Source: Nitrospirae bacterium GWC2_42_7 (GTDB lineage Bacteria; Nitrospirota; Thermodesulfovibrionia; Thermodesulfovibrionales; UBA6898). Taken from it: 13,266 nt of DNA. This document shows positions 1 to 13,204 of this stretch, one piece after another (position 1 is the first letter of the stretch; each line of letters opens with the position of its first letter). The notes beneath the pieces were generated by a model. The model worked only from the letters and a program-made list of their open reading frames with translations, had not been told where the DNA came from and ran no database searches. The translations under genes and the position numbers were made by a program. Where the stretch lies: NCBI GenBank assembly GCA_001803645.1, contig MHDW01000188.1, forward strand, positions 6,182 to 19,447, given 5' to 3'.

Positions 1-244
1 ATTTCCCGAACCATGTTTTGGTTATTCCCAGATCATATGGAGATGATACTGTATACATATACTCTATCCTCGGCTCCAGCGGAGGCGGAGGCCAGAATAT
101 CTTAACATCAGGTCTTGCAATCTCTCCTGTTGCTGCACAGCCAGCAATAAGCGCCAGCAAAAACACAAAAGCACTTGTAGTTCCCATACTTATCTGAAAT
201 CGCTGTTTTGTCACTTTGCTTGCCCTGCAAAAAAATCTCTCCAT
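1..244 (-). CDS. NHL-type lipoprotein, N-terminal part only (cut by window edge)
   Basis: Minus-strand reading frame open from about 244 to the left edge. It encodes a basic stretch, a hydrophobic segment ending in the lipobox LIAGC, then the motif FWPPPPLEPRIEY. The complete NHL lipoprotein at 4254-5324 has the near-identical FWPPPPAQPKIKY just after its own lipidated Cys, so I infer that this is a paralogous propeller lipoprotein whose repeats lie outside the window. The chosen ATG at 244-242 overlaps the TAA of the barrel gene by one base (TAATG), implying translational coupling. GTG at 214 (AGGG about 8 nt upstream) and ATG at 187 are in-frame alternatives. The 187 start would leave a signal peptide with no basic residue, so it is less likely. 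This is the third gene of the isomerase-barrel operon. Family assignment is by resemblance; the start is uncertain. Confidence 0.7.
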   Translation of the reverse strand, partial: MERFFCRASKVTKQRFQISMGTTSAFVFLLALIAGCAATGEIARPDVKIFWPPPPLEPRIEYMYTVSSPYDLGITKTWFGK

Positions 245-2127
245 TAGAACGGCCTGGTTGCCCTAAGAAATATAACCCTTTTATTAATTATATTCCCATT
301 GTCGTCCCGGCTGGATATATTATATTCTCCATGCAGATAAAGCTTTCTGATACGGTAATTGAGAGATGTCAATATCTCATTGGACTTCGAGGTGTTCCCA
401 TCCGAAGAAGTCATTGTCTGTGTTGCTGCCACGGTCAGATAAAAGTTCCTGTAAAGATCAATTTTCAGATTTTCATTCAGTATCAGTGAGTTGGAAGATG
501 AACTGCCTGATCTATAAGCTGAATACTGGGCTGTTGCAGAAAATGTCGAGTATCGGGTCGGCCTTGCATATAATCCTGCATTGAGTACAAATGAAAGTCC
601 ATTAGATGAAGCGCCCTCACTTGGCATATTAATGGAATAACCAAGACTTGCCGAGCTTGTAAGGGTAAATTTTCTGAAGGACCTTGAGGCCGAAATACCT
701 AGGGAGATACTATCGTTAATACTCCCTTCAGTGTCTGCTGTTCCTATCAGTTCTCCATAATAACTATATAAAAAAAGGCCATTAGTCCTTTGGTATGTTT
801 CGTATCGCGAGCCGTAACTCAAATACAATGCATAAGAATGCGATGAAGAACCGGTTGCGGAATTCATTGAAGAACTTAATCCTGTACCGGCATAAGCAGT
901 CAGGATAGATGAATCAAAACGCTTGGAATAATGATAGTTGTAATTGGCGCCCAGATTAGCCTCATATTTATTTTGAGTATCCTCGTTCTCTCGTGTATAT
1001 CTATTATAGGACAGATTTCCGTTAAACGTTAAATTTTTCGAGTAATTGTAGATATTACTGGTCCTGATATCATGGCTTGTTGATTTTACATTATGATCAT
1101 CAAGCATGCTAAAGGCATAACTGTTATAAGAGTAGAATTTCTCGGTCCGGCGTTGCAGGCTAAATGAAAAATGTGTGTCCTTATTGGTATCTGACTTATA
1201 AAATACAAGGTCTGCATATGCAGAGAAAAAATTAAAGAGATCTCTTTGAGCAAAAAGGCTCAGCCTCTGGGATTTCCCGGTATCAGATGAGGAACCGCTG
1301 TCTGTTTTGTATTTCTGTAATTCATATTGCACACCCCATGTTATACCTAGTCCAAAGTCAGAACTTGAGCGATGGCTAAGGTTTGTGTTATTGTTGTTAT
1401 TGTTCAGATTTGAATTATTGTTGCCTCCATTGTTGCCTCCATCTTCACTATTATCTTCTGTATTATCATTATTACTGTTGTTGTTCCTGTTATTGTTCCT
1501 GAAATTATTTCTGTTATTGTTCCTGAAATTATTCAAAAAACTCCCCCTGTCAAAATATGGTGAACCTCTTAAACTGATCGTAAAATAATCAAAAGTAGAC
1601 TCTGTTTTTCCTGTGTTTTGATTGTCACGCTCATATATTGAATGGGAATGTGCTATTGAAAACATTTTATTTGTCCTGGATGAATAGCTCCATCTAGAAC
1701 TAAACTGCGTTATTGTTGTTGTATTATTCAGGCCGAGAAAACCGTCAAGGGTCGACGTTGACCTGCTCGCATTCAGGGATAATGGAAATCTGGTCATGGG
1801 AAATATTAAGGATTCGAAATTAAAACCAATACCCCTGCTGTCACTCTTTGGGGTCTGCTTGTAAAAACTAAAATATATCTCTGATCTAAATAATGCCAGC
1901 CTCGGCCTCCATATATACCCTGAAAGTCCGAGGCTATACTGCATTCCAAAGGTTTTCTGTTCCTCTTTAGCGCCATTGACTTCCCCTGAATAGTTTCTAT
2001 ATGAAAAATCAGCAATTCCATAAAAACGGTACCGTTTTGAATGATCCCAGCGGGATTGCGCTCCGGCAAGAGACGGCAGTAAAACAAGAACAAGCAAAAC
2101 CAATAATAATAATTTTCCCTTTTTCAT
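244..2127 (-). CDS. Putative outer-membrane beta-barrel protein with Asn-rich insert
   Basis: The 627-residue product has a clear Sec signal peptide (MKKGK, a Leu/Val run, cleavage near AGA-QS at 23-24). After it come many short alternating polar/aromatic stretches typical of transmembrane beta-strands, rich in Tyr, Ser, Phe and Asn. The last residue is Phe (RATRPF), as expected for BAM-inserted barrels. Residues 199-249 form a low-complexity Asn-rich segment (FRNNNRNN repeats, then NNGGNNN) that probably makes a long surface or periplasmic loop and separates a smaller N-terminal region from the larger barrel-like half. No CxxCH is present, so it binds no haem c itself. The start lies 3 nt after the isomerase stop and the stop overlaps the next start, so the three genes are one operon. 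I do not recognise the specific family. A role as the porin part of a cytochrome conduit or export pore is inferred from context; an exosortase- or polysaccharide-associated barrel is an alternative. Confidence 0.8.
   Translation of the reverse strand: MKKGKLLLLVLLVLVLLPSLAGAQSRWDHSKRYRFYGIADFSYRNYSGEVNGAKEEQKTFGMQYSLGLSGYIWRPRLALFRSEIYFSFYKQTPKSDSRGIGFNFESLIFPMTRFPLSLNASRSTSTLDGFLGLNNTTTITQFSSRWSYSSRTNKMFSIAHSHSIYERDNQNTGKTESTFDYFTISLRGSPYFDRGSFLNNFRNNNRNNFRNNNRNNNSNNDNTEDNSEDGGNNGGNNNSNLNNNNNNTNLSHRSSSDFGLGITWGVQYELQKYKTDSGSSSDTGKSQRLSLFAQRDLFNFFSAYADLVFYKSDTNKDTHFSFSLQRRTEKFYSYNSYAFSMLDDHNVKSTSHDIRTSNIYNYSKNLTFNGNLSYNRYTRENEDTQNKYEANLGANYNYHYSKRFDSSILTAYAGTGLSSSMNSATGSSSHSYALYLSYGSRYETYQRTNGLFLYSYYGELIGTADTEGSINDSISLGISASRSFRKFTLTSSASLGYSINMPSEGASSNGLSFVLNAGLYARPTRYSTFSATAQYSAYRSGSSSSNSLILNENLKIDLYRNFYLTVAATQTMTSSDGNTSKSNEILTSLNYRIRKLYLHGEYNISSRDDNGNIINKRVIFLRATRPF
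1381..1533 (-). repeat. Low-complexity Asn-codon tract in barrel gene, with 24-bp tandem repeat
   Basis: Codons 199-249 of the barrel gene are mostly AAT/AAC with a few Arg, Gly, Ser and Asp. Within it, on the plus strand, a 24-bp unit beginning ctgttattgttcctg occurs twice in direct tandem (1487-1510 and 1511-1534), differing only in the last base, with a partial further copy before it. A 12-bp unit encoding Gly-Gly-Asn-Asn is duplicated near 1425-1440. Both units are multiples of three, so slippage would change loop length without a frameshift. Confidence 0.85.
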
Positions 2128-2130
2128 TAT

Positions 2131-3102
2131 TTATCTGAATTCCGGATCAAAAATCTCCATTTTCGTGTTTTTCATCAGAGAATTCATGAAATTAACATAA
2201 TTCTCTTCTCTCTTTGAACTAATAAGCTGTCTTTTAGCTTTTTCTTTTACATTCTCAAAAGATGGCGTCTCGCCAAGGATCTTTTCTCCAGCCTTGACAA
2301 TGCTGTAACCGTACATCGTTTTCGCAGGCCCTCCTGTTTCGCCTTCATTCAAAGAAAAAGCAAGCTCTTCAATTTCGGGTTCGAGCCTTCCCTTATGAAT
2401 AAATCCAAGGTCGCCTCCCTTTAAACTATAATCATCCTTAGAGTACTGCATGGCAAGAAGGGAGAAGTCTTCGCCTGCTTTTGCCCTCTTCACAATATCT
2501 TCTGCCAGTTTCAATGCCTTCTCGCGAGCATCCTGATTAGAAGACGGGGCCACTCCGATCATTATATGAAAGATCCTTACCCTGTCAGGCTCCTTGAAAC
2601 TATCTGAGTTATTATTGTAAAATTTCTTTATCTCTTCATCTGTTACAACAGCTTTTTCAAAAACCTCTTTTTTGATCAGTTTATCTACTGCGAGTTCCTT
2701 CTTAATAATATTCCTGTAATAAGCAATTGTCATGCCATTCTTTTTAAGAATATTTTCAAGATTTCTCCGTGTCTTGAATGTCTTAATATCCTCTTGCTCC
2801 CGCTTGTTGATTTCATCTGTATCAGGAAGAAGTCCTCTTCTGACAGCTTCAGTATAAATTAATTCTCTCTTCTTGATATTTTCGAACGCCTGTTTTCTTG
2901 CGGCCTTTTTATTTTCTTCAGGCACAGCGCCATGGACATAAGTTTTTGGTATAAGCCTTTCGGTTTCAAGTTCGATATCTATTGATGTTATGCTGCCTTC
3001 TCCTATTTTTGCTATTATCTTTTCCTCAGCAAAACTGCTCGAAGATTGACAAAAAATACATAAAAACAGAACCGGAATAGTTTTAAAATAAATTAGTTTA
3101 AT
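2131..3102 (-). CDS. Exported parvulin/SurA-like peptidyl-prolyl isomerase, apparent AUU start
   Basis: Peptidyl-prolyl cis-trans isomerase predicted to act in the periplasm on exported or outer-membrane proteins. Numbered from the AUU start (323 residues): signal peptide 1-25 (basic, then VLFLCIF, ending SSFA); an N-terminal chaperone-like helical domain opening EEKIIAKIGEGSITSIDIE, typical of SurA/PrsA-type proteins, to about 170; parvulin domain about 173-272 with the FHIMI active-site strand (His179) and GGDLGF (229-234). The usual GYHII near its end reads GYSIV, so the second conserved His is Ser. A short helical tail follows. The first conventional start in frame is GTG at 2925, which would delete the signal peptide and begin inside the N-domain. 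The frame continues open upstream to ATT at 3102-3100, 5 nt after AAAGGAGG. It heads the operon with the barrel and second lipoprotein and probably helps fold them or the cytochrome. Confidence 0.85.
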   Translation of the reverse strand: MKLIYFKTIPVLFLCIFCQSSSSFAEEKIIAKIGEGSITSIDIELETERLIPKTYVHGAVPEENKKAARKQAFENIKKRELIYTEAVRRGLLPDTDEINKREQEDIKTFKTRRNLENILKKNGMTIAYYRNIIKKELAVDKLIKKEVFEKAVVTDEEIKKFYNNNSDSFKEPDRVRIFHIMIGVAPSSNQDAREKALKLAEDIVKRAKAGEDFSLLAMQYSKDDYSLKGGDLGFIHKGRLEPEIEELAFSLNEGETGGPAKTMYGYSIVKAGEKILGETPSFENVKEKAKRQLISSKREENYVNFMNSLMKNTKMEIFDPEFR

Positions 3103-3115
3103 TTTTTCCTCCTTT
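3100..3115 (-). promoter_or_regulatory. Strong Shine-Dalgarno followed by AUU initiation codon
   Basis: The minus strand reads AAAGGAGG (3115-3108), five A residues, then ATT AAA CTA. The spacing is ideal for initiation at ATT. An in-frame TGA sits directly before the Shine-Dalgarno, and the only conventional start downstream before the mature domain is a distant GTG. The position of the signal peptide fixes the start here. A single T-to-G change would make it ATG, so a sequencing error cannot be excluded. Confidence 0.7.
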
Positions 3116-3133
3116 CAAAAAAAACATTTCTAC

Positions 3134-3139
3134 ATTATA
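3134..3139 (-). promoter_or_regulatory. Probable -10 box of the isomerase-barrel-lipoprotein operon
   Basis: A perfect TATAAT on the minus strand lies about 32 nt upstream of the AUU start and just downstream of the cytochrome terminator, so the three-gene operon seems to have its own promoter. The -35 region is poor (TCATTT or CATTTT at the expected distance). The predicted RNA would start near 3127 and carry a leader of about 25 nt with the Shine-Dalgarno. Confidence 0.5.
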
Positions 3140-3177
3140 ACCACATATTTAGCCTGAAAATGACCTAAAAAATCAAC

Positions 3178-3210
3178 AAAAAAAAGGGATACCTGAAAGG
3201 TATCCCTTTT
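3178..3210 (-). terminator. Rho-independent terminator after cytochrome gene
   Basis: Perfect inverted repeat AAAAGGGATACC / GGTATCCCTTTT with a 5-nt loop. On the minus strand it is followed by a run of eight T. It lies about 20 nt after the cytochrome stop codon. It separates the cytochrome transcript from the downstream isomerase operon. The A/T flanks are symmetrical enough for some activity in the other direction, but no plus-strand gene ends here. Confidence 0.92.
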
Positions 3211-3230
3211 GAGCAACTTAATAAAACCTA

Positions 3231-4019
3231 CTACTTACAGTGACATGAGAGACACAATCCACTGCCTACGTTGTTAACTTTCAGGAACGGAGAATATCCT
3301 GACTGAGTACCGCCATAGTAAATATGCGCTCCATGGCATGATGAACACTGGAACTGATTGCTTGGTGTAAGTTTTGCACTGATTGATGTTGCTGTAGGAT
3401 AATCAGTAACAAATTGCCCAATAGCAGTTGCATAGTTTCCAGTTACACAAGTAGCTACAGTAGCTGGATCAACTAGTCCACCATCAAGATTCGCCAGTGC
3501 TGTGTCATAAGTAAAGTTCACAGGATGGTCATTAGAAAGATCTGTTCCGATATTCGCGTTTGTGCTTATCGTTGTCATGAAACCAGCATTCGACATTGTA
3601 GGATTAGCACCGATATCATTCGAAGGATTGTAAAGCGAGTTAACAGCCTGCGTTCCATCATGACAGCTCATGCAGAGGTTTGACAAAGCGGTCCCGTTTC
3701 CAGAAAGCTCAACTTGAGTACCCTGTCCCTGCGGTGCAGCTCCAGCATTAAATGTCGTGCTGTTATACATGCCATAACCATCAGTTTTTGTCGACAACGA
3801 GTGGTTCCATAGTGGGTCTGTACTAATGCCTGTTGCCTGGTGAGGGGTATGGCAAAATACACATATCTGGTCCTCATTTGAAGACTTATAGCTGCCAGTA
3901 CCTGATGTCGACAGGTTATGCTTTGTGCCTGATACGTTGTTAATCGGGGCACTGATCGCAATCGCTACCAAAGCAAGAGACATCAATACAACCATCAATA
4001 AAAGTAAGGATTTTTTCAT
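3231..4019 (-). CDS. Secreted tetrahaem c-type cytochrome (doubled-CXXCH type)
   Basis: Exported electron-transfer protein of 262 residues. The signal peptide is MKKS plus a long Leu/Val/Ala core, cleaved near ISA-P at 24-25. Four haem c sites are visible: CVFCH 53-57, CMSCH 116-120, CSSCH 225-229 and CLSCH 256-260. Five other histidines (34, 60, 73, 165, 232) could serve as distal ligands, so bis-His coordination is possible. The patterns GTKHNLS, ICVFCHTPH, PLWNHS, LCMSCHDGT and LSNDHPVNFTYD are of a kind common in single-domain cytochromes of Desulfobacterota and Nitrospirota. The protein is rich in Ser, Thr, Asn and Gly, as in extracellular cytochromes. The start is the ATG 7 nt after GGGAGG; an upstream TTG at 4088 gives a poorer N-terminus. 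It lies downstream of an NHL lipoprotein gene and ends at a strong terminator. The four-haem count invites comparison with the filament-forming cytochrome OmcE of Geobacter; identity with it is not shown. Confidence 0.93.
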   Translation of the reverse strand: MKKSLLLLMVVLMSLALVAIAISAPINNVSGTKHNLSTSGTGSYKSSNEDQICVFCHTPHQATGISTDPLWNHSLSTKTDGYGMYNSTTFNAGAAPQGQGTQVELSGNGTALSNLCMSCHDGTQAVNSLYNPSNDIGANPTMSNAGFMTTISTNANIGTDLSNDHPVNFTYDTALANLDGGLVDPATVATCVTGNYATAIGQFVTDYPTATSISAKLTPSNQFQCSSCHGAHIYYGGTQSGYSPFLKVNNVGSGLCLSCHCK

Positions 4020-4049
4020 TTTAACACCTCCCTTCACCTTTGAAATTTG

Positions 4050-4068
4050 ACTTAAACAATGTTTAAGT
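4050..4068. repeat. 8-bp inverted repeat in cytochrome leader
   Basis: ACTTAAAC-AAT-GTTTAAGT is a perfect palindrome with 3-nt spacing, 31 nt upstream of the cytochrome ATG. It has the shape of a dimeric-repressor operator, or of a small AU-rich hairpin in the leader. It has no T-run and is AT-rich, so it is not a terminator. Function unknown. Confidence 0.5.
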
Positions 4069-4114
4069 TTGATAAATAATGTATGCAATTTTTATTCCTT
4101 TCTGAAACTTTGTA

Positions 4115-4143
4115 TAAATATCAATACTTTCATAAAATCTCAA
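4115..4143 (-). promoter_or_regulatory. Candidate promoter of the cytochrome gene
   Basis: On the minus strand TTGAGA (4143-4138), a 17-nt spacer and TATTTA (4120-4115) form a plausible sigma-70-like promoter. It would give a leader of about 90 nt containing the palindrome at 4050-4068 and the GGGAGG ribosome site. The -10 match is weak. The cytochrome may alternatively be read through from the NHL lipoprotein gene. Confidence 0.35.
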
Positions 4144-4183
4144 CAAAAAAACCATTACAGCTTGTGCGTCAAAAAACAACATA

Positions 4184-4199
4184 TGCGCTTTTTAGCGCA
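4184..4199. repeat. Small GC hairpin in NHL-cytochrome gap
   Basis: TGCGCT-TTTT-AGCGCA is a 6-bp perfect inverted repeat in a very AT-rich stretch between the NHL lipoprotein and the cytochrome. The GCTTGTGCG at 4160-4168 can pair, with one mismatch, to CGCACCAGC at 4196-4204, giving a competing longer stem. On the minus strand the hairpin is followed after about 7 nt by a run of T. It could attenuate or partly terminate the transcript, or stabilise RNA ends between two unequally expressed genes. Confidence 0.4.
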
Positions 4200-4253
4200 C
4201 CAGCTATATCACAAGAAAATCAAAATACTTTTAATATAATCTATAAAAAACGT

Positions 4254-5324
4254 TTATTTGTCAAGAAGATTTTTCTTTTCACCCGAATATCTCCCGCCAA
4301 GATACTGAAATACCTGAACCCGGAAATTCAACTGGTCAACAACATATATCCTATCCTGTTGATCTATTGATATGCCTGATGGATTCTGGAATTCACCGGG
4401 CCCGAGTCCGGCATGTCCGACATCCATAAGTAACTGGCCGTCAGGATTAAATAACCTGAAGTTATTGAAAGCAGTGTCGCCGACATAGACATGGTCCTCT
4501 GAGTCAATAGCAATTCCCTTGGGCCGGGCAAAACAATTAAGACAGTCCCCTATCTGGCCGAATTTCCGTATGAATTTGCCTTCAGAATCAAATGCCTGCA
4601 CCCTGAAATTACCGGAGTCTGTAATATAAACCTCATTTTTTGAATTTATCGCAATATATATAGGATAATTAAACTGTCCATCTTCGCTCCCCCTGCTGCC
4701 CATTGTTGAAATATATTTTCCATCGAGCGAAAATACAAAAATCTTATGTTTAAGTGTGTCAATCACATACAATCTTTTTAGTTTTTTGTCTATTGCAAGG
4801 CCAGTCGGTCTTTCAAATGACCCTTCAGGGCCGCCGCCGCTAATATTCATTTGAAAAAGGCCGTTCATATTGTATATATTAACTACATTATTTTTAGAAT
4901 CAGAGACATAAATCCTACCGCTTCCTTCATCAATTGCTATATCCACAGGCACTGATAGTTTACCCTGTCCCACTTTCCCCAAAAACCAGAAGTTTTTTGC
5001 AACCCTGTCTATCACAATCACTGCTCCATGCATTGTATCAGTAACATATATCCTGCCGCTTGAATCCACTGCCACTGCCTGCGGCTTGCGCAACATCAAT
5101 GTGCCTTCTTCTCCAATAATGTTTTCCGCAAATACTGCAAATGCAGACTTTCCGAAATCATCCACTCTGTGCCATGACTCAAGATATTTGATCTTCGGCT
5201 GGGCAGGGGGAGGAGGCCAAAACAGATCAACCTGCTCAACGGTTGTCGGAGAGCATCCAAAAAACACTAACAACATAAGAAGCATATAACGTTCTGCGCG
5301 TTTTCTATTAATAAATTTTCTCAT
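4254..5324 (-). CDS. Six-bladed NHL-repeat beta-propeller lipoprotein
   Basis: Exported propeller protein of 356 residues. The basic N-terminus and hydrophobic stretch end at FFGC, making Cys24 the likely lipidated residue (the lipobox is imperfect, Phe at -3). The FWPPPP motif at 35-40 follows. Six NHL repeats with the pattern P-x-G/A-[IV]-A-[IV]-D ... [IL]-Y-V-x-D lie at about 80-106, 126-152, 172-199, 220-246, 267-293 and 314-340, enough for one closed propeller with no other domain. A CLNC pair (261-264) sits in the loop before blade 5; it lacks the His of a haem site. The start has AAAGGA 6 nt upstream. Such propellers usually act as protein-binding scaffolds. Its place immediately upstream of the cytochrome suggests that it binds or anchors the cytochrome or the barrel at the membrane. 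A catalytic role, as in some NHL lyases, is less likely. Confidence 0.9.
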   Translation of the reverse strand: MRKFINRKRAERYMLLMLLVFFGCSPTTVEQVDLFWPPPPAQPKIKYLESWHRVDDFGKSAFAVFAENIIGEEGTLMLRKPQAVAVDSSGRIYVTDTMHGAVIVIDRVAKNFWFLGKVGQGKLSVPVDIAIDEGSGRIYVSDSKNNVVNIYNMNGLFQMNISGGGPEGSFERPTGLAIDKKLKRLYVIDTLKHKIFVFSLDGKYISTMGSRGSEDGQFNYPIYIAINSKNEVYITDSGNFRVQAFDSEGKFIRKFGQIGDCLNCFARPKGIAIDSEDHVYVGDTAFNNFRLFNPDGQLLMDVGHAGLGPGEFQNPSGISIDQQDRIYVVDQLNFRVQVFQYLGGRYSGEKKNLLDK

Positions 5325-5406: not shown

Positions 5407-6900
5407 TTAATTTTCATATCTTTGTTTGCGAACATACTCAATAAGATATGGATTTCCTGATGCAGAATACTCAGCCCTGTCCCATATTTTTTTTGCTTCG
5501 CCGGAATTCCCCTCCTGATCTCTTCTCTTTGCAAAATATACATATCTTTCAACTGCAGCCCGGTTTATCCTCAGCATAGCATCATATTCATGACGGGCCT
5601 TCTGTTCTTCTCCTGACTTTAAATAGATCCTGTGGAGATTCCATCTGACAACAAGAGAGTCAGGCGCTATTCTCACTGCGCTCTCAAAAAGTGCAGTGTC
5701 ATTCTTCCAGTCAACTGTCCTTGCTGCGCTTCTCACTGTCAAAGCGATTAGTATTAACAAAAAAGCGGGTAGAAAACGCCTTATAATGACGTCCTCTTTT
5801 AAGAATACCGCACCTGTCAGACAAAGAGCGCTTAAAGGCATATAAATATATCTTTCTGACATTATATGCCCTATAACAGGAACAATATTGCTTAGCGGTA
5901 AAAGTGAAATAATAAAAAAAACAAGGGGAAATGCCCTGTGGTCTTCCTTTTTTATCAGATATATTGACGATACTGACAGTAAAATGATTAAAACAACCAC
6001 TGATATTACATGCCAGTCCAAAGGAGTGACTATCCAGGCTATGTCATGCCTCACTGAAAGATCAGCAGGCCAGAATATTATTTTAATATATTCTAAAAAT
6101 GCGGCTGATGTAGTATAAAGTGTAATAGCAGGACTGCCGAGTATATACTCACCGCGTTCAGGCCCCGGAGAGACATAAAGTATCATAAACATATATAAAA
6201 CTGTTACAGCAAGTAGAGGCAACACGCCATACAAAAATAATTTTCCGGCCTTCTGCCTGAAGATGATCAGCATAACAATCGATACTATCGGTATCACCAA
6301 TGCAGTTTCTTTCGAAAGATGCCCTGCAAGTGCGGATATAGTAATAATAATGGAATAACTTATCCTGCCTTCATTAGAATCAACAATACGATAAAGATAA
6401 TATATTGTTATCAGGACAAAAAGAGCGGATAATATTTCCTTTACATTTGATATTCCTGCTACGGATTCTGTGACAACCGGATGAACAGCAAATAATAATG
6501 CACTAAACAATGAGACAAGCCTTTTTTTTGTAATGGAAAGTGCAAGAATAAAAACCATGAAAGAAACTAATATTTGCAATAGGATCGAGAATGAATGAAG
6601 ATATATTGTATGGGGCCCGGGTAGAGACACAACAAACATAAAAATAAGAGTTCTCAAAGGACGGTAATATGAACCGCCTGCTCCTGAACTTCCGGCCTGT
6701 CTGTCTGTAAAAGCCCCCTTAAGAATAGAGCTGATATTATCATCTGATGCAAGTTTTTCTGCCTGTGGGATGAGATAATTGTCATCCCATGTATATCCGT
6801 TGAAAATTCCGGCCCCGTGAGCTGCAAGAGTAAAGATGATCAGCACCAGAAAAACAACCTTGTTACTCCTGATTAACTGATCGATGCTATCGGTTGACAT
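5407..6900 (-). CDS. GT-C type membrane glycosyltransferase-like protein with C-terminal TPR
   Basis: Polytopic inner-membrane protein of 497 residues, roughly ten hydrophobic helices, then a soluble C-terminal TPR region (about 402-476). The architecture and motifs resemble the TMTC/PMT group of GT-C enzymes, which use polyprenyl-phosphate sugars. Key features are WDD at 38-40 in the first periplasmic loop (the usual place of the catalytic acids), YYRPL at 78-82, HPVVTE at 140-145 with K154-E155, LSKE at 195-198 and SERYIYMP at 348-355. A DWKND motif at the end of the membrane part leads into the TPR. It starts 3 nt after the upstream gene, so the two are co-transcribed. Likely reaction: transfer of a sugar from a lipid carrier to an exported protein or glycan. 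Donor and acceptor are unknown. Confidence 0.8.
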   Translation of the reverse strand: MSTDSIDQLIRSNKVVFLVLIIFTLAAHGAGIFNGYTWDDNYLIPQAEKLASDDNISSILKGAFTDRQAGSSGAGGSYYRPLRTLIFMFVVSLPGPHTIYLHSFSILLQILVSFMVFILALSITKKRLVSLFSALLFAVHPVVTESVAGISNVKEILSALFVLITIYYLYRIVDSNEGRISYSIIITISALAGHLSKETALVIPIVSIVMLIIFRQKAGKLFLYGVLPLLAVTVLYMFMILYVSPGPERGEYILGSPAITLYTTSAAFLEYIKIIFWPADLSVRHDIAWIVTPLDWHVISVVVLIILLSVSSIYLIKKEDHRAFPLVFFIISLLPLSNIVPVIGHIMSERYIYMPLSALCLTGAVFLKEDVIIRRFLPAFLLILIALTVRSAARTVDWKNDTALFESAVRIAPDSLVVRWNLHRIYLKSGEEQKARHEYDAMLRINRAAVERYVYFAKRRDQEGNSGEAKKIWDRAEYSASGNPYLIEYVRKQRYEN

Positions 6901-6903
6901 TGA

Positions 6904-8907
6904 TTATCGCCTGTCCTGTAAATATTTTTCATATATCTTCTCGGCCTCTTTGTTCCTGCCTTGCAATATGGATATTCTCCAAAGCATTTCATAAGCCTGT
7001 TTGTCTGGCAGTACTTCAACAAGTCTCTTTAATACCCTCTCGGCCTCTGTCAGTTTTCCAACTGACATATATGCTTTTGCAAGATTAAAATATATAGCAG
7101 GGACAGGCCTGACTGAAAGCCTTAAAGCCTCCTCATAACTCTTTACAGATTCCTCCTTATCATCTAATAAATATTGTATGTTACCAATCATGAATCTGGC
7201 CATCCATGAACTTTTTGCATTCTCAATATTTTTTCTGACTTCCTCATATCCAATAAGCAGTTTTACTGTATCAGTTTGTGAGACATCGAATCTTCCGGTG
7301 TCCGGATTGAGAACATGCATAGAATACTTATTATTTACATCCTTAAAAACTGTACTGTCTTTCAGGTAAAGCAGGCTGTGATCATCCCAGTAGACAAGTC
7401 GCCATCCACTGCTGTTGAAAAGACGATCCCTGATGTTTCTATCATCAGAAGAGCTATAATTAAGAAGGACTATATTTATCCCATACTTATCTAAAATGCT
7501 CTGCCATTCGGGTCTTCCAGATAATACCGCATGATATTCATCAAAAAATTTTTTATGAAAAAAACGGTTATCTATATAGATTCTCACCTGAGGGTATAGT
7601 TCCCATATCAAATAACCGCCCCAGCCGTGTGTATTGAACATATTGCCTTTTATGTTTTGGTTCTTTACAAAACTCACGGCTCCTGCTGGATATGGGACAT
7701 TATCAAATTTCCTGAAATAATGTTTGCTGGTTACAATCGAAAAAACTGCGGCTGCGATCAGAGATAAAAGAAGCAATCTGAGAAAATAAACAACTCTGAC
7801 TTTCTTTCTGAAAAGTGCTGCGCTAAATCCGCCCAAAGCAGAAACAATAACCGGTGCTGATGCAAAAACAAAATGGGGAATTCCCCTGTTGGCGATCCAT
7901 GCAGAGATCGAAAATAAAGCAGCAATGATCACAAAATGGATCTTCACCCTTTTTATTGAAAACATGATCGAGATAACAAACAAACCAAAGAATGTCCAAA
8001 AAGACCAGTATCGTAAGGTTGTTGAAGGCAGAAGTTCCTCTACACCCGCAAATTGCTCTGACATAACAAAAAGAGGCCAGACAACGGTTTTATATGAAAA
8101 GGGATTAATTAACGACGCAGCAATTATCAGTGCATAAACCATGATGAGTTTTTTAAAATTACCAGGAAGTTCATAATTGTGATCACTCGTTTTGTCACTC
8201 CGGCTGGCCTGTGCCCGATGTTTGGGTATCCGGAGTCTTTCCGAAGAAGGATTTCCGGTAAGCGGGAATGACGTATGGTTATTTTTTTTCTTCGAGTAAA
8301 ATAGCAGTATCCCTTCAACAATAATAAAGACTCCCGGCACTGCAATACCCCATAAGCTTTCTGCATGAATATTCACCCACAAAAGCATGACAGGTGGAAG
8401 AATATATATATATTTCATCCTCCCCTCTGTATATTGATGAAGGCAGAAAAGATTAATTAGAAGAAAAACATAAGAGAAGTGCTGGGGCCTGAGGGCAAAT
8501 CTATGTGAAGATGCCAACACCCCTAATGCAAGCACAAAGACGATTAACGGTATGTTGTCCGAATACATTCTCGCAGTCCTGTAGAGAATTGCAAAAGAAA
8601 CCATAGTTAGAAAGACCTGAAGTCCGACAATTAATGCCTCGCCCCCAATATTGTAAAGGCTATAAACAATCGCCTGAAAAAGCCACTCATGGTTCAGATA
8701 TGGAAATTCAGGCCAGCTGCAGTTGAAGTAATGAGTGGTGAGTATGGAACCGGTTTTAAAGAAATATTCTCCTGCCTTCAGATGCCCCCAGAGATCGTAA
8801 TCCGACATCCTCCTGAGTGAAAGCAGAAAAGCAAGGCAGAAAAGACCCGCTACGAGAAGAATATCAGATACCCTGTTGATCTTTGTTTTTCCTGAAAGAA
8901 AAGTCAT
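6904..8907 (-). CDS. Large polytopic GT-C-like membrane protein with C-terminal TPR
   Basis: Protein of 667 residues with about ten hydrophobic helices in the first 400, a periplasmic-type globular part (about 405-520) and TPR-like helices near 560-660. The first loop carries DYDLWGHLKAGE (36-47), followed by LNHEWL (71-76), ALRPQ (138-142) and NIHAES (179-184). This D-x-W-x-H arrangement is typical of a group of bacterial GT-C proteins related to the PMT-like family but distinct from the WDD/TMTC-like neighbours. Residues about 212-239 are encoded by an inserted palindromic repeat (separate entry) in a polar loop between helices. No Shine-Dalgarno precedes the ATG; a TATAAT box lies 6 nt upstream, so the mRNA may be leaderless. 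It is the first gene of the leftward glycosyltransferase pair. Substrate unknown. Confidence 0.75.
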   Translation of the reverse strand: MTFLSGKTKINRVSDILLVAGLFCLAFLLSLRRMSDYDLWGHLKAGEYFFKTGSILTTHYFNCSWPEFPYLNHEWLFQAIVYSLYNIGGEALIVGLQVFLTMVSFAILYRTARMYSDNIPLIVFVLALGVLASSHRFALRPQHFSYVFLLINLFCLHQYTEGRMKYIYILPPVMLLWVNIHAESLWGIAVPGVFIIVEGILLFYSKKKNNHTSFPLTGNPSSERLRIPKHRAQASRSDKTSDHNYELPGNFKKLIMVYALIIAASLINPFSYKTVVWPLFVMSEQFAGVEELLPSTTLRYWSFWTFFGLFVISIMFSIKRVKIHFVIIAALFSISAWIANRGIPHFVFASAPVIVSALGGFSAALFRKKVRVVYFLRLLLLSLIAAAVFSIVTSKHYFRKFDNVPYPAGAVSFVKNQNIKGNMFNTHGWGGYLIWELYPQVRIYIDNRFFHKKFFDEYHAVLSGRPEWQSILDKYGINIVLLNYSSSDDRNIRDRLFNSSGWRLVYWDDHSLLYLKDSTVFKDVNNKYSMHVLNPDTGRFDVSQTDTVKLLIGYEEVRKNIENAKSSWMARFMIGNIQYLLDDKEESVKSYEEALRLSVRPVPAIYFNLAKAYMSVGKLTEAERVLKRLVEVLPDKQAYEMLWRISILQGRNKEAEKIYEKYLQDRR
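8194..8272. repeat. In-frame palindromic repeat element inside coding sequence
   Basis: The stretch begins GTCACTCCGGCTGGCC and ends, on the opposite strand, with GTCATTCCCGCTTACC. These are imperfect terminal inverted repeats with 11 of the first 15 positions equal by eye. Inside is a second imperfect hairpin bounded by CCGGA and TCCGG (about 8230-8257). It is much richer in GC than the flanking gene. The ends match the general look of dispersed GTCATTCCCGC...GCGGGAATGAC repeats known from many bacterial genomes. It is read through in frame as residues about 212-239, a polar Arg/Ser/Pro-rich loop. No second copy is in this window, so repeat status rests on structure and composition. Confidence 0.6.
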
Positions 8908-8913
8908 TGTTGT

Positions 8914-8942
8914 ATTATAATCAACATTGTGATACGTAGCAA
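8914..8942 (-). promoter_or_regulatory. Promoter for leaderless transcript of the 667-aa GT-C gene
   Basis: On the minus strand TTGCTA (8942-8937), a 17-nt spacer and a perfect TATAAT (8919-8914), then ACAACA and the ATG at 8907. The predicted transcription start coincides with the A of ATG, and there is no Shine-Dalgarno. Confidence 0.65.
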
Positions 8943-8948
8943 AGACTA

Positions 8949-8977
8949 TTGTGTTAGTTCCGTACAGTTCTTATAAA
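8949..8977 (+). promoter_or_regulatory. Candidate promoter of the divergent GT-C/TPR gene
   Basis: TTGTGT (8949-8954), 17 nt, TATAAA (8972-8977). RNA would start near 8984, after the ATG at 8981 and about 6 nt before the in-frame ATG at 8990, which would then be the start. It overlaps the same 70-nt divergent region as the minus-strand promoter. Confidence 0.4.
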
Positions 8978-8980
8978 AAC

Positions 8981-10618
8981 ATGGATCACATGAATAGTTT
9001 GACTGAATATTTTTTGAAAACCAGAAGGTATTTGCTTCCCTTAATACTGGCCTGTGCTGCTATTGCTGTCTATGCTAACAGTTTCGGGAATGGCTTTGTA
9101 TGGGACGATAGCCAGATTATAGTAACCAACAATGAAAACAGGGATTTATCCAAAATACCAGGATTATTCGTCAGCACTGATACTGCATACACTTATGATG
9201 AATCGTCATATTACAGACCCCTCAACAGGCTTACTTATGTTCTTGAATATAAACTCTACGAGTTAAACCCTTTTGGTTACCATGCAGGGAATATATTGCT
9301 TCACGCTACTGCTGTCCTGCTTCTCTATTACCTTTTAAACAGTCTTTTTTCAAGCACAGGGCTGGCATTTACTACCGCACTATTATTCGCTGTTCATCCA
9401 ATAAATTCAGAGACTGTCAATTTCATCTCAGCAAGAAATAATATACTATCCACAGTCTTTGTTCTCTCTTCTTTCATCGTTTTTATCAGGGCGGAAATAA
9501 AACAAAAGACTGTATATTTCTGGTTCTCAGGATTCTTGTTTTTCCTCGGTCTTCTGAGCAAAGAGATTGCAGCCATGCTGCCGATTATGCTACTTGCATA
9601 TAACTTCAAGTTTTCAAGTCCCATAGCAAAAAAGATACGGCAAAAATTCATTTCTCTGCTCCCCTTTGCCTTCTTTGCAATAATCTACATCGTTTTGAGG
9701 GCAATCACACTTTCAAATAACATTGAGCCCGTCTTTAATACTAATAATTTTGGGGTAAGAATCCTGCAAAATATTTATATAATTCCAAAATATCTTTCGG
9801 TCTTCTTTCTTCCCTCAAATCTTAACGCCTATTATCTAATACCGGAGGATTACCTTCATTTCAAGACTTTTCTGATTTCCGGATGGGCCATAATAATGCT
9901 GCTGCTATTTTATTTAATAAAAAGCAAACGTCCCGCAGCCATTTTCGGTCTTGTCTGGTTCGCAGTCAATTTCATACCTATAAGCAATATAATTGCCATC
10001 CCAAGTGCGCAAATGGCTGAGAGATATATGTACCTGCCTGCTATAGGTTTATTTATAATTACAGCAGAGTATCTTAATACTTTTTACATGAAAGGCATAT
10101 GGAACAAAGCAGTTATCTCCTGCTTTGTAATAATCATATTCGCCCTCTCACTTATCACTGTCAAAAGAAATACTATCTGGAAAAACGACTTCTCATTATT
10201 TGAAAGCATTACAATATCTCAGCCTGAATCACCTTTTGGCTACTATAATCTCGGCTGCGTTTACAAAGGCAGCGGCGATCTGCAAAATGCAAAAAAAGAA
10301 TGGGAAAAAACACTTGAGATCGCTCCCCTACATTCTAATGCCTTGAATCAGTTAGGCAACATATACTACTTGTCAGGCCTTCTTACGAAGGCCAAAGTAT
10401 ATTACTACAGCTCAGTTCAGTCAGATCCTGAAAATGCAGAGGCACATTATAATCTTGCCATGACACTTGAAAATTTGAATGACACAGATGAAGCATTTTT
10501 ACATTACAGCATATTTCTTCAAAAGGCATCTCCTGAATATGCAACCCAAATCCAGCAGGTTAAAAACAAATTTTCAGGCAACTTAAGCAGGGACCAAGGA
10601 CATTTCAAGGAAAGATGA
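8981..10618 (+). CDS. TMTC-like GT-C membrane protein with three C-terminal TPRs
   Basis: Predicted polyprenyl-phosphate-sugar dependent glycosyltransferase of the inner membrane, 545 residues from this ATG. Motifs: WDD 41-43 in the first periplasmic loop, YYRPL 77-81, FGYHAGN 98-104, HPINSE 139-144, LSKE 192-195, AERYMYLP 346-353 and IWKND 399-403. About ten helices are followed by three good TPRs (about 417-450, 453-485 and 487-519; e.g. GYYNLGCVYKGSGDLQNA). The order of motifs is the same as in the leftward 497-residue protein, so the two are paralogues. Starts at GTG 8951, ATG 8981 and ATG 8990 are all in frame and none has a good Shine-Dalgarno; all keep the first helix. Divergently arranged from the 667-residue gene and followed by the GT2 gene. 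The sugar and acceptor are unknown; the TPRs probably bind the acceptor protein or a partner. Confidence 0.8.
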   Translation: MDHMNSLTEYFLKTRRYLLPLILACAAIAVYANSFGNGFVWDDSQIIVTNNENRDLSKIPGLFVSTDTAYTYDESSYYRPLNRLTYVLEYKLYELNPFGYHAGNILLHATAVLLLYYLLNSLFSSTGLAFTTALLFAVHPINSETVNFISARNNILSTVFVLSSFIVFIRAEIKQKTVYFWFSGFLFFLGLLSKEIAAMLPIMLLAYNFKFSSPIAKKIRQKFISLLPFAFFAIIYIVLRAITLSNNIEPVFNTNNFGVRILQNIYIIPKYLSVFFLPSNLNAYYLIPEDYLHFKTFLISGWAIIMLLLFYLIKSKRPAAIFGLVWFAVNFIPISNIIAIPSAQMAERYMYLPAIGLFIITAEYLNTFYMKGIWNKAVISCFVIIIFALSLITVKRNTIWKNDFSLFESITISQPESPFGYYNLGCVYKGSGDLQNAKKEWEKTLEIAPLHSNALNQLGNIYYLSGLLTKAKVYYYSSVQSDPENAEAHYNLAMTLENLNDTDEAFLHYSIFLQKASPEYATQIQQVKNKFSGNLSRDQGHFKER

Positions 10619-10648
10619 TCAGCAGAACATTTTCTGACAGCAGTTTTT

Positions 10649-10677
10649 TTCAACAAGACACCTTTTTTGTATATAAT
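10649..10677 (+). promoter_or_regulatory. Promoter for leaderless GT2 transcript
   Basis: A perfect TATAAT at 10672-10677 is followed by ACAAA and then the ATG at 10683, so RNA should begin at or within a base of the start codon. The -35 (TTCAAC, 10649-10654, 17-nt spacer) is weak. No Shine-Dalgarno is present. Confidence 0.6.
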
Positions 10678-10682
10678 ACAAA

Positions 10683-11435
10683 ATGGTCAGAAACAAAAAA
10701 GTAGTAGTTGTTCTTCCGGCATACAATGCTGAGAAGACTCTGCAAGACACTTACTCCGAAATTCCCCAGGACATCGTTGATGAGATCATCCTTGTGGACG
10801 ATGCAAGCAGTGACAGAACTGCTGAAGTCGCCAGATCGCTCGGCATAAGGACCATTATCCATCCTGAAAACAAAGGATACGGCGGCAACCAAAAGACCTG
10901 CTACAGGGAAGCCTTAAAGCTCGGCGGAGATATAATTATTATGCTTCACCCTGATTATCAGTACACCCCAAAATTAATACCTGCAATGGCCTATCTGATA
11001 CAATCAGATGAATTCGATGCTGTTCTAGGTTCAAGAATACTCTCAGGAGGGGCCTTGAAAGGCGGGATGCCTCTTTACAAATATATATCAAACAGAGTTC
11101 TGACTTTGATACAGAATTTCTTTCTCGGAGCAAAGCTTTCCGAATACCATACCGGCTACAGAGCCTTCAGGCGAGAGGTCCTCGAGCAACTGCCGCTTGG
11201 GGAAAACTCCGATGATTTTGTATTTGATAACCAGATGCTTGCACAAATAATATATTTCGGTTACAGGATCGGGGAGATAAGCTGTCCTGCAAAATATTTT
11301 AAAGATGCATCTTCAATAAATTTCAGCAGAAGCGTTAAATATGGGTTAGGTGTACTTGCCACCACATTTAAATTTGTACTACAGAAAATAGGAATCGCAA
11401 AGATAAATATTTTCAAAGACAAAAACAGCAAATAA
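10683..11435 (+). CDS. Family 2 glycosyltransferase, polyprenyl-phosphate sugar synthase type
   Basis: Cytosolic GT-A fold enzyme of 250 residues. VVVVLPAYNAEKTL (7-20) is the nucleotide-binding start and ILVDDASSD (36-44) carries the usual acid pair. LHPDYQY (88-94) takes the place of the metal-binding DADLQH-type motif, and SEYHTGYRAF (153-162) corresponds to the acceptor-site SxxTGFR-like motif. Length and motifs fit the dolichyl/undecaprenyl-phosphate mannose or glucose synthase group without the two C-terminal membrane helices found in some members. Such enzymes move a sugar from UDP or GDP to a lipid phosphate, the donor used by GT-C enzymes. Its place between two GT-C/TPR genes supports that pairing. 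The exact sugar cannot be read from sequence. Confidence 0.88.
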   Translation: MVRNKKVVVVLPAYNAEKTLQDTYSEIPQDIVDEIILVDDASSDRTAEVARSLGIRTIIHPENKGYGGNQKTCYREALKLGGDIIIMLHPDYQYTPKLIPAMAYLIQSDEFDAVLGSRILSGGALKGGMPLYKYISNRVLTLIQNFFLGAKLSEYHTGYRAFRREVLEQLPLGENSDDFVFDNQMLAQIIYFGYRIGEISCPAKYFKDASSINFSRSVKYGLGVLATTFKFVLQKIGIAKINIFKDKNSK

Positions 11436-11483
11436 GGACAAAAACCTGTTTAATTAGATGTGGACACAAAGATCATTAACTCT

Positions 11484-11514
11484 TTGCATAAAATTGACTT
11501 TCTGAAATTATAAT
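11484..11514 (+). promoter_or_regulatory. Promoter for leaderless transcript of last GT-C gene
   Basis: A perfect TATAAT at 11509-11514 is followed by ACAAACA and the GTG at 11522. TTGCAT (11484-11489) is a possible -35 with a long 19-nt spacer; TTGACT at 11494 is too close to pair with it. No Shine-Dalgarno precedes the GTG. Confidence 0.55.
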
Positions 11515-11521
11515 ACAAACA

Positions 11522-13204
11522 GTGGAAATAAAAGAAAAACCCTATCAACACCTATTTCAAAAGAACAATTTCATCAAAGAATTGTCTATAAGTATTTTTT
11601 TTATTTCTTTTATTCTGCTCATCTACTGGAGAAGTCTTTATGGGGATTTTATATGGGATGATTCATCGTATTTTATATATAATGACATTCTTACACACTT
11701 GAAGCCTCACAATGTCATTGAGATTTTCTCAAAGCCAAGTAATTACTGGAACGAACATCTGCCAGTCAGAGATTTGCTTTTTGTAGTCGAGTACAATATA
11801 TTTGGGCTTAATCCGGTTGGTTATCATGCAGTCAGTATTGTTTTATATATTTTAATAGTTTTTTTAGTATATTTATTTTTACAGAGCTTGTATTCAAATT
11901 ACATCGGGAAATCCAGTGTATTGTGGCCAAAACACAGCAGAGTACCTGTCATTGCAGTTACCTTGATCTTCATTGCTTACCCTGTACATGCCGAGTGCGT
12001 TGCTTATATTTCTGGTCAAAAAGACCTTCTGTATTCCTTGTTCTCATTATCAGCTATTTACGCTTTTTCCCTGCTTTTCAATGCTACGGACAGAAAAAAA
12101 CTACTTTTCAGCATTGGACTTTTTTTTTACTACCTTGCATTGCTTTCGAAGCTTACCGGTTTTGCACTATTTATTTTTATTCCGTTGCTCTGGGTGATCA
12201 GTGATAATGATCAAAAACCCAAATTATCTATGGCTGCTTCAGCCTGGTTGCTTGTAAATATTCCTGCGATATCATGGATTTTAATAAATATTTATAAAAC
12301 GCCGCTCGAAAGCAATATCTCTACGTCTGCGCTGGAACATATTATAGTAGCCCTTAAGGTCCTTGGTGCACATACAGCCCTGGCCCTCAAGCCATTCCCG
12401 CTTAGTTTTGGGTATCCATTTGATCGATCAACCACTTTCGATCCGAATTTATTAATAGGTATAATGACCTTTGCTGCTACAGCATTTATTATTGTCTTTA
12501 TGAGGAAAAAGATATTATTGGTATTTTCCTCGGCACTTTTCATTGCTTTTTTATTGCCTGTTTTACAACTGCAAGGCTATTTAACAAATGAGTTTGTATA
12601 CGATAGATATCTTTTCTTGCCGGTTTTAGGGACTGCAATTCTATTTGAACAAGGCTCTGCGTTCTTGGCTGTTTCTTTAAAAAATAAAGCAAAAGGATTT
12701 TACATTGCTCTGATTTCTTGTTTAGTCATATTTTTTGCCTTTATTACAATTTCTTATATACCTGCTTTTCGGGATGATCTTTCATCGAAGAGAAATTCTT
12801 ATAATATCTACCCGGGATGGCAATCCAGTACTTTCTATTATATTTCTGCTTTAATTAACTATGGCAAAGTGGATGAAGCCGATAAAATCATATCAAGCGA
12901 AAATAATATTTATCTGCCTCTCTGGACCAAGCATTATTTCAGGGGATTGATCTTTATCAAAAAAGGAATGAGTGATAAAGCAATGCCCGAGTTGTTAACT
13001 GCTTCTCATCTGTCAGTCAGTAACGGATATTTCCCCTATCCCAATATACCTCTGGCCGAACTTCTGTTACGAAAAGAAAAATATTCAGAAGCTCAATTGG
13101 CTCTGCATCAGGTTATCAACTCTCCCCAACGCAAACCACTCGATCTTTATCAGGCGAAACAACTTCTTGGAGCCATCTCATACATGGAAAAAAAGCAGAA
13201 CTGA
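11522..13204 (+). CDS. Diverged GT-C/TPR membrane protein
   Basis: Polytopic protein of 560 residues, a third paralogue of the TMTC-like group. WDD 45-47, NPVGYHAVS 97-105, YPVHAE 153-158 with QKDLL 166-170, LLSK 207-210 and YDRYLFLP 360-367 align with the other two. Two motifs are changed: YYRPL is replaced by LPVRDL (80-85), and the Glu of LSKE is Leu211. The C-terminal 130 residues are helical with weak TPR-like repeats (e.g. residues near 440-470 and 515-545). The GTG start is supported by the -10 box 7 nt upstream and because it keeps a basic segment before the first helix. It could have another substrate or be a non-catalytic partner. It is followed by 62 nt without recognised features. 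Confidence 0.75.
   Translation: MEIKEKPYQHLFQKNNFIKELSISIFFISFILLIYWRSLYGDFIWDDSSYFIYNDILTHLKPHNVIEIFSKPSNYWNEHLPVRDLLFVVEYNIFGLNPVGYHAVSIVLYILIVFLVYLFLQSLYSNYIGKSSVLWPKHSRVPVIAVTLIFIAYPVHAECVAYISGQKDLLYSLFSLSAIYAFSLLFNATDRKKLLFSIGLFFYYLALLSKLTGFALFIFIPLLWVISDNDQKPKLSMAASAWLLVNIPAISWILINIYKTPLESNISTSALEHIIVALKVLGAHTALALKPFPLSFGYPFDRSTTFDPNLLIGIMTFAATAFIIVFMRKKILLVFSSALFIAFLLPVLQLQGYLTNEFVYDRYLFLPVLGTAILFEQGSAFLAVSLKNKAKGFYIALISCLVIFFAFITISYIPAFRDDLSSKRNSYNIYPGWQSSTFYYISALINYGKVDEADKIISSENNIYLPLWTKHYFRGLIFIKKGMSDKAMPELLTASHLSVSNGYFPYPNIPLAELLLRKEKYSEAQLALHQVINSPQRKPLDLYQAKQLLGAISYMEKKQN

Follow-up and report, generated by a model that had tools for sequence, protein, structure and literature searches.

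A candidate OmcE-type cytochrome filament operon with a conduit-like outer-membrane base in a Nitrospirota draft genome

The window analyzed here, a stretch of 13,266 nucleotides from the draft genome of Nitrospirae bacterium GWC2_42_7 (70.8% complete; MHDW01000188.1, 6182–19447), carries on its minus strand an operon that, judging from its genes, probably encodes an extracellular cytochrome filament of the OmcE type together with its own outer-membrane base, in which two further cytochromes, cytB and a heptahaem protein, would act as the adaptor. The operon is cut by the window edge; in transcription order it reads NHL1, cytA, PPI, barrel and the start of NHL2, followed on the rest of the contig (L004) by the remainder of NHL2, cytB and the heptahaem gene. 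A first-pass annotation of the window had reported five consecutive genes for a cytochrome, a barrel, an isomerase and two NHL lipoproteins, all of which were found, and had proposed a filament locus; this idea is likely right, on better grounds than those given. Its argument that the locus goes beyond a porin–cytochrome conduit because the sole cytochrome is small was wrong, since a second tetrahaem and a heptahaem cytochrome follow past the window edge and relatives carry an undecahaem cytochrome. The locus has the appearance of a filament system to which a conduit-like base in the outer membrane has been added. The features of the operon are as follows, with Uet denoting the undecahaem electron transfer cluster discussed below.

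4254–5324, minus strand: NHL1, NHL-repeat beta-propeller lipoprotein; six NHL stretches (Pfam NHL, E = 2e-39), lipobox FFGC identified by eye, WPPPP after it
3231–4019, minus strand: cytA, secreted tetrahaem cytochrome, OmcE homologue, UetA-like, proposed filament subunit; four CxxCH motifs, signal peptide identified by eye
3182–3210, minus strand: strong intrinsic terminator immediately 3' of cytA; 13-bp stem, then Ts, z = -4.7
2131–3102, minus strand: PPI, periplasmic parvulin prolyl isomerase, UetB-like; SurA_N_3 and Rotamase domains, apparent ATT start
244–2127, minus strand: barrel, 627-aa outer-membrane beta-barrel, UetC-like; 28 predicted strands, no plug
1–244, minus strand: NHL2, N-terminal part of the second NHL lipoprotein; signal, lipobox IAGC identified by eye, WPPPP; the rest lies at L004:5375–6043
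L004:4653–5378, outside the window: cytB, second OmcE-like tetrahaem cytochrome; 241 aa, four CxxCH motifs
L004:3478–4668, outside the window: heptahaem cytochrome; 396 aa, seven CxxCH motifs

Sequence searches revealed that cytA is a clear homologue of OmcE of Geobacter sulfurreducens (7tfs), with E = 7.4e-30 in a single-sequence search covering residues 16–264 of 264, E = 1.2e-57 in a profile search and 40% identity; the likeness to this filament subunit, first noticed from the letters of the window alone, is homology. A second solved cytochrome, 9yuq_N (16 chains in one entry), matched over nearly the full length (E = 1.4e-28), and OmcS (6ef8) appeared in the profile search through a short stretch only (8e-07). 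In an alignment of cytA with 42 four-haem relatives, which were taken from 47 listed ones and selected for having four CxxCH motifs, eight histidines were invariant, four of them within CxxCH and four outside it (H34, H60, H165 and H232 of cytA), the latter being candidate distal ligands; together they form the complement required by four bis-His haems. The same four non-CxxCH histidines are found in cytA, cytB, OmcE and 9yuq, and in a wider set they are kept in 84, 85, 87 and 84 of 88 stand-alone OmcE-like copies. One ligand of haem 2 in the OmcE filament is a histidine of the adjacent subunit (PMC12203936; statements from this and the other cited papers rest on excerpts of them). In cytA, H34 is our candidate for such an inter-subunit ligand. 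The rise of OmcE filaments is 34 Å (PMC12954529). OmcE shares all the conserved histidines with cytA, a putative filament subunit that, unlike OmcE, is accompanied by PPI and a split adaptor.

The two cytochrome genes past the window edge are, by sequence, homologous to the two halves of the undecahaem cytochromes of relatives. We compared 56 undecahaem proteins that contain an OmcE-like domain: 45 matched cytB and then the heptahaem protein, in that order and without overlap, ten matched cytB alone and one (in L008) matched neither. Exactly eleven CxxCH motifs were present in 54 of 63 larger OmcE-like cytochromes, and the same-strand gene upstream of such proteins encoded an NHL protein in 44 of 55 cases. 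The OmcE-like half keeps the eight histidines in 53–58 of 58 fused proteins and in 15/15 split ones; thus, judged by its ligands, one domain of the larger cytochrome is a filament subunit. A missing donor histidine, as a sign that one filament interface had been lost in the adaptor, was sought and not found in either the fused or the split forms, so the polarity of the adaptor is not readable from its ligands.

To characterize the gene neighborhood, we used the best 80 loci of at least 547 relatives in named genomes, fetched by OmcE-like domain patterns, so that the OmcE-like domain was present by construction and the neighboring genes were not; genes in the locus maps were labeled with small profiles of our own. 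The titles of the relatives named Gammaproteobacteria, Betaproteobacteria, Acidobacteriota, Verrucomicrobia, Planctomycetes, Bacteroidetes, Desulfobacterota-type bacteria, Nitrospirae and other bacteria. Of these loci, 70 had NHL genes, 58 had a barrel belonging to this family and 58 had an OmcE-like domain within a larger cytochrome; 46 of 76 small (3–5 haem) OmcE-like genes had a directly adjacent NHL gene on the same strand. Two layouts recurred: a four-haem OmcE-like gene (OmcE4) followed by NHL, a cytochrome with at least five haems, barrel, NHL and undecahaem, and, mostly in Proteobacteria, OmcE4 followed by PPI, barrel, trihaem genes, NHL and undecahaem. The split into 4-haem and 7-haem genes seen in the window operon was also found in two Acidobacteriota loci (L006 and L011) and probably in a third (L010); L006 contains the whole set in the same order (NHL, OmcE4, PPI, barrel, NHL, OmcE4, 7-haem). 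The set recurs across genomes of many phyla, a point that the first-pass annotation had proposed to check, and its reservation that the barrel might belong to an unrelated transport family with no conserved link to cytochromes is not borne out, because barrels of this family occur repeatedly alongside these cytochromes.

Within its own taxonomic family, an OmcE-like protein was present in 22 of 27 genomes, that of the window included. In 20 family stretches, which we chose among 27 contigs with an OmcE-like match outside the window's genome, the split pair of OmcE4 and heptahaem genes was found in 13, and many loci held several OmcE-like copies. The order of PPI and barrel varied in the family, the gene after the barrel being PPI in 5/11 and NHL in 6/11 cases. 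As separate observations, several family loci (L121, L122, L125, L127, L128, L129 and L133) carry an extra OmcE-like tetrahaem gene after the heptahaem gene, without a terminator, which precedes a gene for an 837–958-aa NHL protein and a multihaem gene (up to 18 haems), and a locus of Desulfuromonas sp. BM515 (L043) has a 3298-aa open frame with 61 CxxCH motifs after an OmcE-like gene and a gene for a 974-aa NHL protein.

A terminator such as the one in the gap between cytA and PPI is often present behind OmcE-like genes. Over all mapped loci, with genes counted if they had at least 100 bp of downstream sequence, a terminator followed 33 of 94 stand-alone OmcE-like copies vs 1 of 15 split copies, as well as 2/30 PPI, 2/68 barrel and 1/154 NHL genes; among cytochrome genes it followed 0/22 seven-haem, 3/92 other heptahaem-like and 3/60 larger OmcE-like ones. 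A shuffled control (one copy per stretch) gave two terminator matches in total. When only internal genes (those with another cluster gene next) were compared, terminators were found behind 27 of 94 OmcE-like genes and 6 of 306 others (Fisher p = 1e-13), and the bias persisted after removal of the OmcE-like genes that precede a heptahaem-type gene (24/73; p = 5e-14). Within the family, a terminator followed 16 of the 24 stand-alone copies; of the eight that had none, seven precede an NHL gene, six of these lying directly behind a heptahaem-type gene, and this position marks them as another class of copy. The bias fits a polymer subunit, which has to be produced in larger amounts than its assembly factors, and gives the cytA gene a signature of separate expression, presumably at a higher level.

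The operon resembles the Uet cluster, which was described in Tenderiales and is also present in six Gallionella genomes (PMC10734462), and whose name, uetABCDEFGHIJ, appears also in PMC12575090. Its reported make-up is the tetrahaem UetA, the isomerase UetB, the barrel UetC, the trihaems UetDEG, the NHL proteins UetHI and the undecahaem UetJ (PMC10734462). Matched by this described composition rather than by sequence comparison, the operon shares with Uet the tetrahaem cytochrome, prolyl isomerase, barrel, two NHL proteins and both halves of the undecahaem cytochrome. Unlike Uet, the 19-kb contig is without trihaem genes: six-frame translation of the window and L004 gave cytA, cytB and heptahaem as the only open frames of at least 40 aa with CxxCH, and, as the contig ends on both sides, trihaem genes could lie elsewhere. 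Such genes are present in several proteobacterial relatives. Uet also has a single UetJ where the present locus has a 4-haem cytB and a 7-haem gene, and the window operon, in contrast to Uet, is adjoined by glycosyltransferase-like genes. Owing to the missing trihaems on the contig and the split UetJ, we do not file the locus as Uet proper.

An ordinary porin–cytochrome conduit of the Uet kind, in which cytA would be a monomeric extracellular tetrahaem cytochrome that exchanges electrons with the undecahaem or heptahaem protein in the barrel and no filament is formed, accords with the description of Uet as a porin–multihaem complex with a predicted extracellular tetrahaem UetA and an undecahaem UetJ; in the excerpts of that description, UetA is not termed a filament subunit (PMC10734462). 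We nevertheless consider such a conduit improbable, because the sole solved structures near cytA by sequence are the OmcE filament and the 16-chain entry 9yuq_N, because the cytA gene shows the expression signature described above, and because OmcE-like genes are present in multiple copies in many family loci. The literature searched yielded no link between Uet and OmcE, PMC12575090 naming both, with OmcE only in the title of a reference in the part available; the original papers on Uet, on nanowire ubiquity and on OmcS assembly lay outside this search.

Other systems share some features with the locus. In a Geobacteraceae locus (L051), a 5-haem gene stands where PPI would be and the undecahaem gene is fused. 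Shen et al. reportedly described in 2025 an OmcS companion (osc) cluster that provides a cytochrome filament with helper proteins, namely a prolyl isomerase, a beta-propeller and channel-like proteins; osc serves the hexahaem OmcS, whereas cytA has four haems. In MtrCAB, a decahaem cytochrome of the MtrA family adjoins the barrel, and this contig has instead a heptahaem protein with DmsE/NrfB-like stretches. Syntrophic sulphate reducers carry OetABI/OmcKL conduits beside OmcS/OmcX-like cytochromes, and there too a porin–cytochrome conduit is encoded next to putative filament cytochromes (PMC10553843). In that case Apc2a and cytochromes similar to OmcS or OmcX are the filament candidates, and the excerpts describe no domain shared by filament and conduit cytochromes (PMC10553843).

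The AlphaFold model of the barrel contained 28 strands (pLDDT 77.7). The protein had no match in Pfam or NCBIfam, and searches of the Protein Data Bank with profile and single sequence gave nothing reliable. Foldseek placed MtrB (6r2q_B) at the top by TM-score among the 50 matches listed, beside which the fold matches were mainly TonB receptors, with chaperone–usher pores also present; for this reason no barrel family is claimed. PPI, a SurA/PrsA-like protein, is longer than in the list of open reading frames, its frame being open upstream of the GTG at 2925 as far as position 3102, where an ATT follows AAGGAGG; this extension encodes an apparent signal peptide. We saw no in-frame ATG, GTG or TTG that would give this signal peptide; the apparent start, the rare initiator ATT, lies at window positions 3100–3102 on the minus strand (AAGGAGGAAAAAATT AAA CTA). 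The spacing of 3 bp between PPI and barrel and the overlap of one base between barrel and NHL2 suggest that these three genes are translationally coupled.

The fold matches to chaperone–usher pores and TonB receptors and the SurA/PrsA-like nature of PPI favor a model in which PPI, barrel and the NHL proteins form mainly an export machine, the barrel being an usher-like secretion pore for cytA rather than an electron conduit and the filament being wired otherwise. The reported make-up of the osc cluster points the same way. Such a model seems rather unlikely in view of the gene order in the 80 loci, where a gene matching the heptahaem-like profile lies directly before 27 of 59 barrel genes (PPI before 11) and an NHL gene directly after 22; this arrangement fits a barrel that is wired. 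The export-pore and electron-conduit roles of the barrel do not exclude each other.

The NHL repeats of NHL2 lie at L004:5375–6043, behind a run of N. This short run (L004, about 6145–6180) lies inside the gene and separates two stretches that are read in different frames, which is most simply explained by an assembly gap of uncertain length. Both lipoproteins carry the motif WPPPP..P.I.Y (NHL1, 5205–5219; NHL2, 80–94), 12–15 residues after the lipobox Cys, and a relaxed WPPPP-like motif was found in 49/105 and 21/35 related NHL genes.

Upstream of NHL1, the window contains genes for proteins with multiple transmembrane segments that resemble GT-C glycosyltransferases and TPR proteins, and for a family 2 glycosyltransferase (GT2) most like dolichol-phosphate-mannose synthase.

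5407–6900, minus strand: GTC1, GT-C-like protein with multiple transmembrane segments (8 by crude count) and a weak TPR match; 82 bp upstream of NHL1, same strand
6904–8907, minus strand: GTC2, GT-C-like protein with multiple transmembrane segments and C-terminal TPR; family members enriched near OmcE-like genes
8951–10618, plus strand: GTC3, PMT_2 and TPR glycosyltransferase-like protein; divergent from GTC2
10683–11435, plus strand: GT2, glycosyltransferase family 2, dolichol-phosphate-mannose-synthase-like/GtrB-like (5mlz, E = 1.6e-14)
11522–13204, plus strand: GTC4, protein with multiple transmembrane segments and no Pfam or NCBIfam match; our own grouping with GTC1 and GTC3, based on start, size and membrane segments

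The four GT-C/TPR-like proteins resemble TMTC proteins in layout, and the region 5407–13204 is possibly an O-glycosylation island. OmcE filaments are extensively glycosylated (PMC9473688). In 26 genomes of the family, excluding that of the window, an OmcE-like gene lay no more than 10 kb away from 16 of 54 GTC2-like genes (spread over 9 genomes; 0.39 genes expected) and from 9 of 121 GTC3-like genes (6 genomes; 0.88 expected); copies within one genome are not independent, and the 9 genomes against 0.39 expected GTC2-like genes make the former result independent of such copies. This enrichment and two family loci (L127 and L128) that have a GT-C gene between NHL and the OmcE-like gene, on the opposite strand, argue against an unrelated surface-polysaccharide locus that adjoins the operon by chance. 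Chance adjacency is still a serious possibility, one to which the multi-copy nature of these families (54 GTC2-like and 121 GTC3-like genes in the 26 genomes) lends weight, as do two further results that also count against glycosylation of the filament itself. First, OmcE-like domains near GT-C genes showed no enrichment in Ser/Thr, nor did Ser/Thr content differ significantly between stand-alone and fused OmcE-like domains or, in the family, between stand-alone and split ones. Second, GT-C genes rarely accompany OmcE-like genes in other phyla: the GT-C profile also caught TPR-only proteins and matched in 21/80 loci outside the family, and only 4/80 remained when at least six crude transmembrane segments were required (L009 and L012 have a GTC3-like match that falls below this count).

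At the other end of the contig, four consecutive secreted-looking proteins are encoded after heptahaem (L004:1–3211), three of them with carboxypeptidase-regulatory-like matches. A CPR3-like protein (E = 8e-26), which resembles the proteins of L004:1–3211, comes after the OmcE-like gene in a Geoalkalibacter (L061).

The model that we infer for the OmcE-type filament with its outer-membrane base is as follows. cytA would be exported to the periplasm and loaded with four haems, and PPI, as a SurA-like parvulin, would keep cytA or the barrel folded there. The 28-strand barrel would provide the route across the outer membrane, after which cytA would polymerize outside the cell, with each subunit lending a histidine to a haem in its neighbor. 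The OmcE-like part of the adaptor, cytB, may serve as the initial "subunit" onto which the others of the filament are stacked, while its heptahaem part may conduct electrons through or to the barrel, with the direction of electron flow likewise belonging to the model. The two NHL lipoproteins on the outer membrane could be anchors or scaffolds, the terminator behind cytA would yield the subunit in excess over the assembly parts, and the neighboring GT-C and GT2 genes would probably glycosylate the exported filament.

Several observations besides those on glycosylation weigh against this model. The AlphaFold monomer of cytA, built from 43 sequences, was of low confidence (pLDDT 46.4), and neither the fold nor an open ligand site was visible in it. 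The match of the barrel to MtrB is weak (TM-score 0.44), with a Z tied with that of TonB receptors, and the similarity of heptahaem to NrfB/DmsE is also weak, in part driven by CxxCH, with stretches below the NCBIfam cut-offs. PPI was found in only 17 of the 80 loci. NHL1, as well as cytA, has a terminator-like hairpin at its 3' end, although a weaker one (z = -1.6).

Nanowire export, anchoring and electrical connection to the outer membrane were termed unresolved in the excerpted part of a 2025 review (PMC12307469). We tentatively suggest that the undecahaem cytochrome of Uet-like clusters, split in the present locus, may be the base of an OmcE-type nanowire, which would consist of a filament-subunit half and a heptahaem wire in the 28-strand barrel, so that the filament grows on a conduit with continuous haem stacking, and that this may be a general plug across many phyla. 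This class of loci, with a conserved cassette and a larger cytochrome bearing a copy of the filament subunit, offers a concrete and testable model for nanowire attachment. If the model is true, the Uet clusters of cathode and iron-oxidizing bacteria would be tied to OmcE-type filaments.

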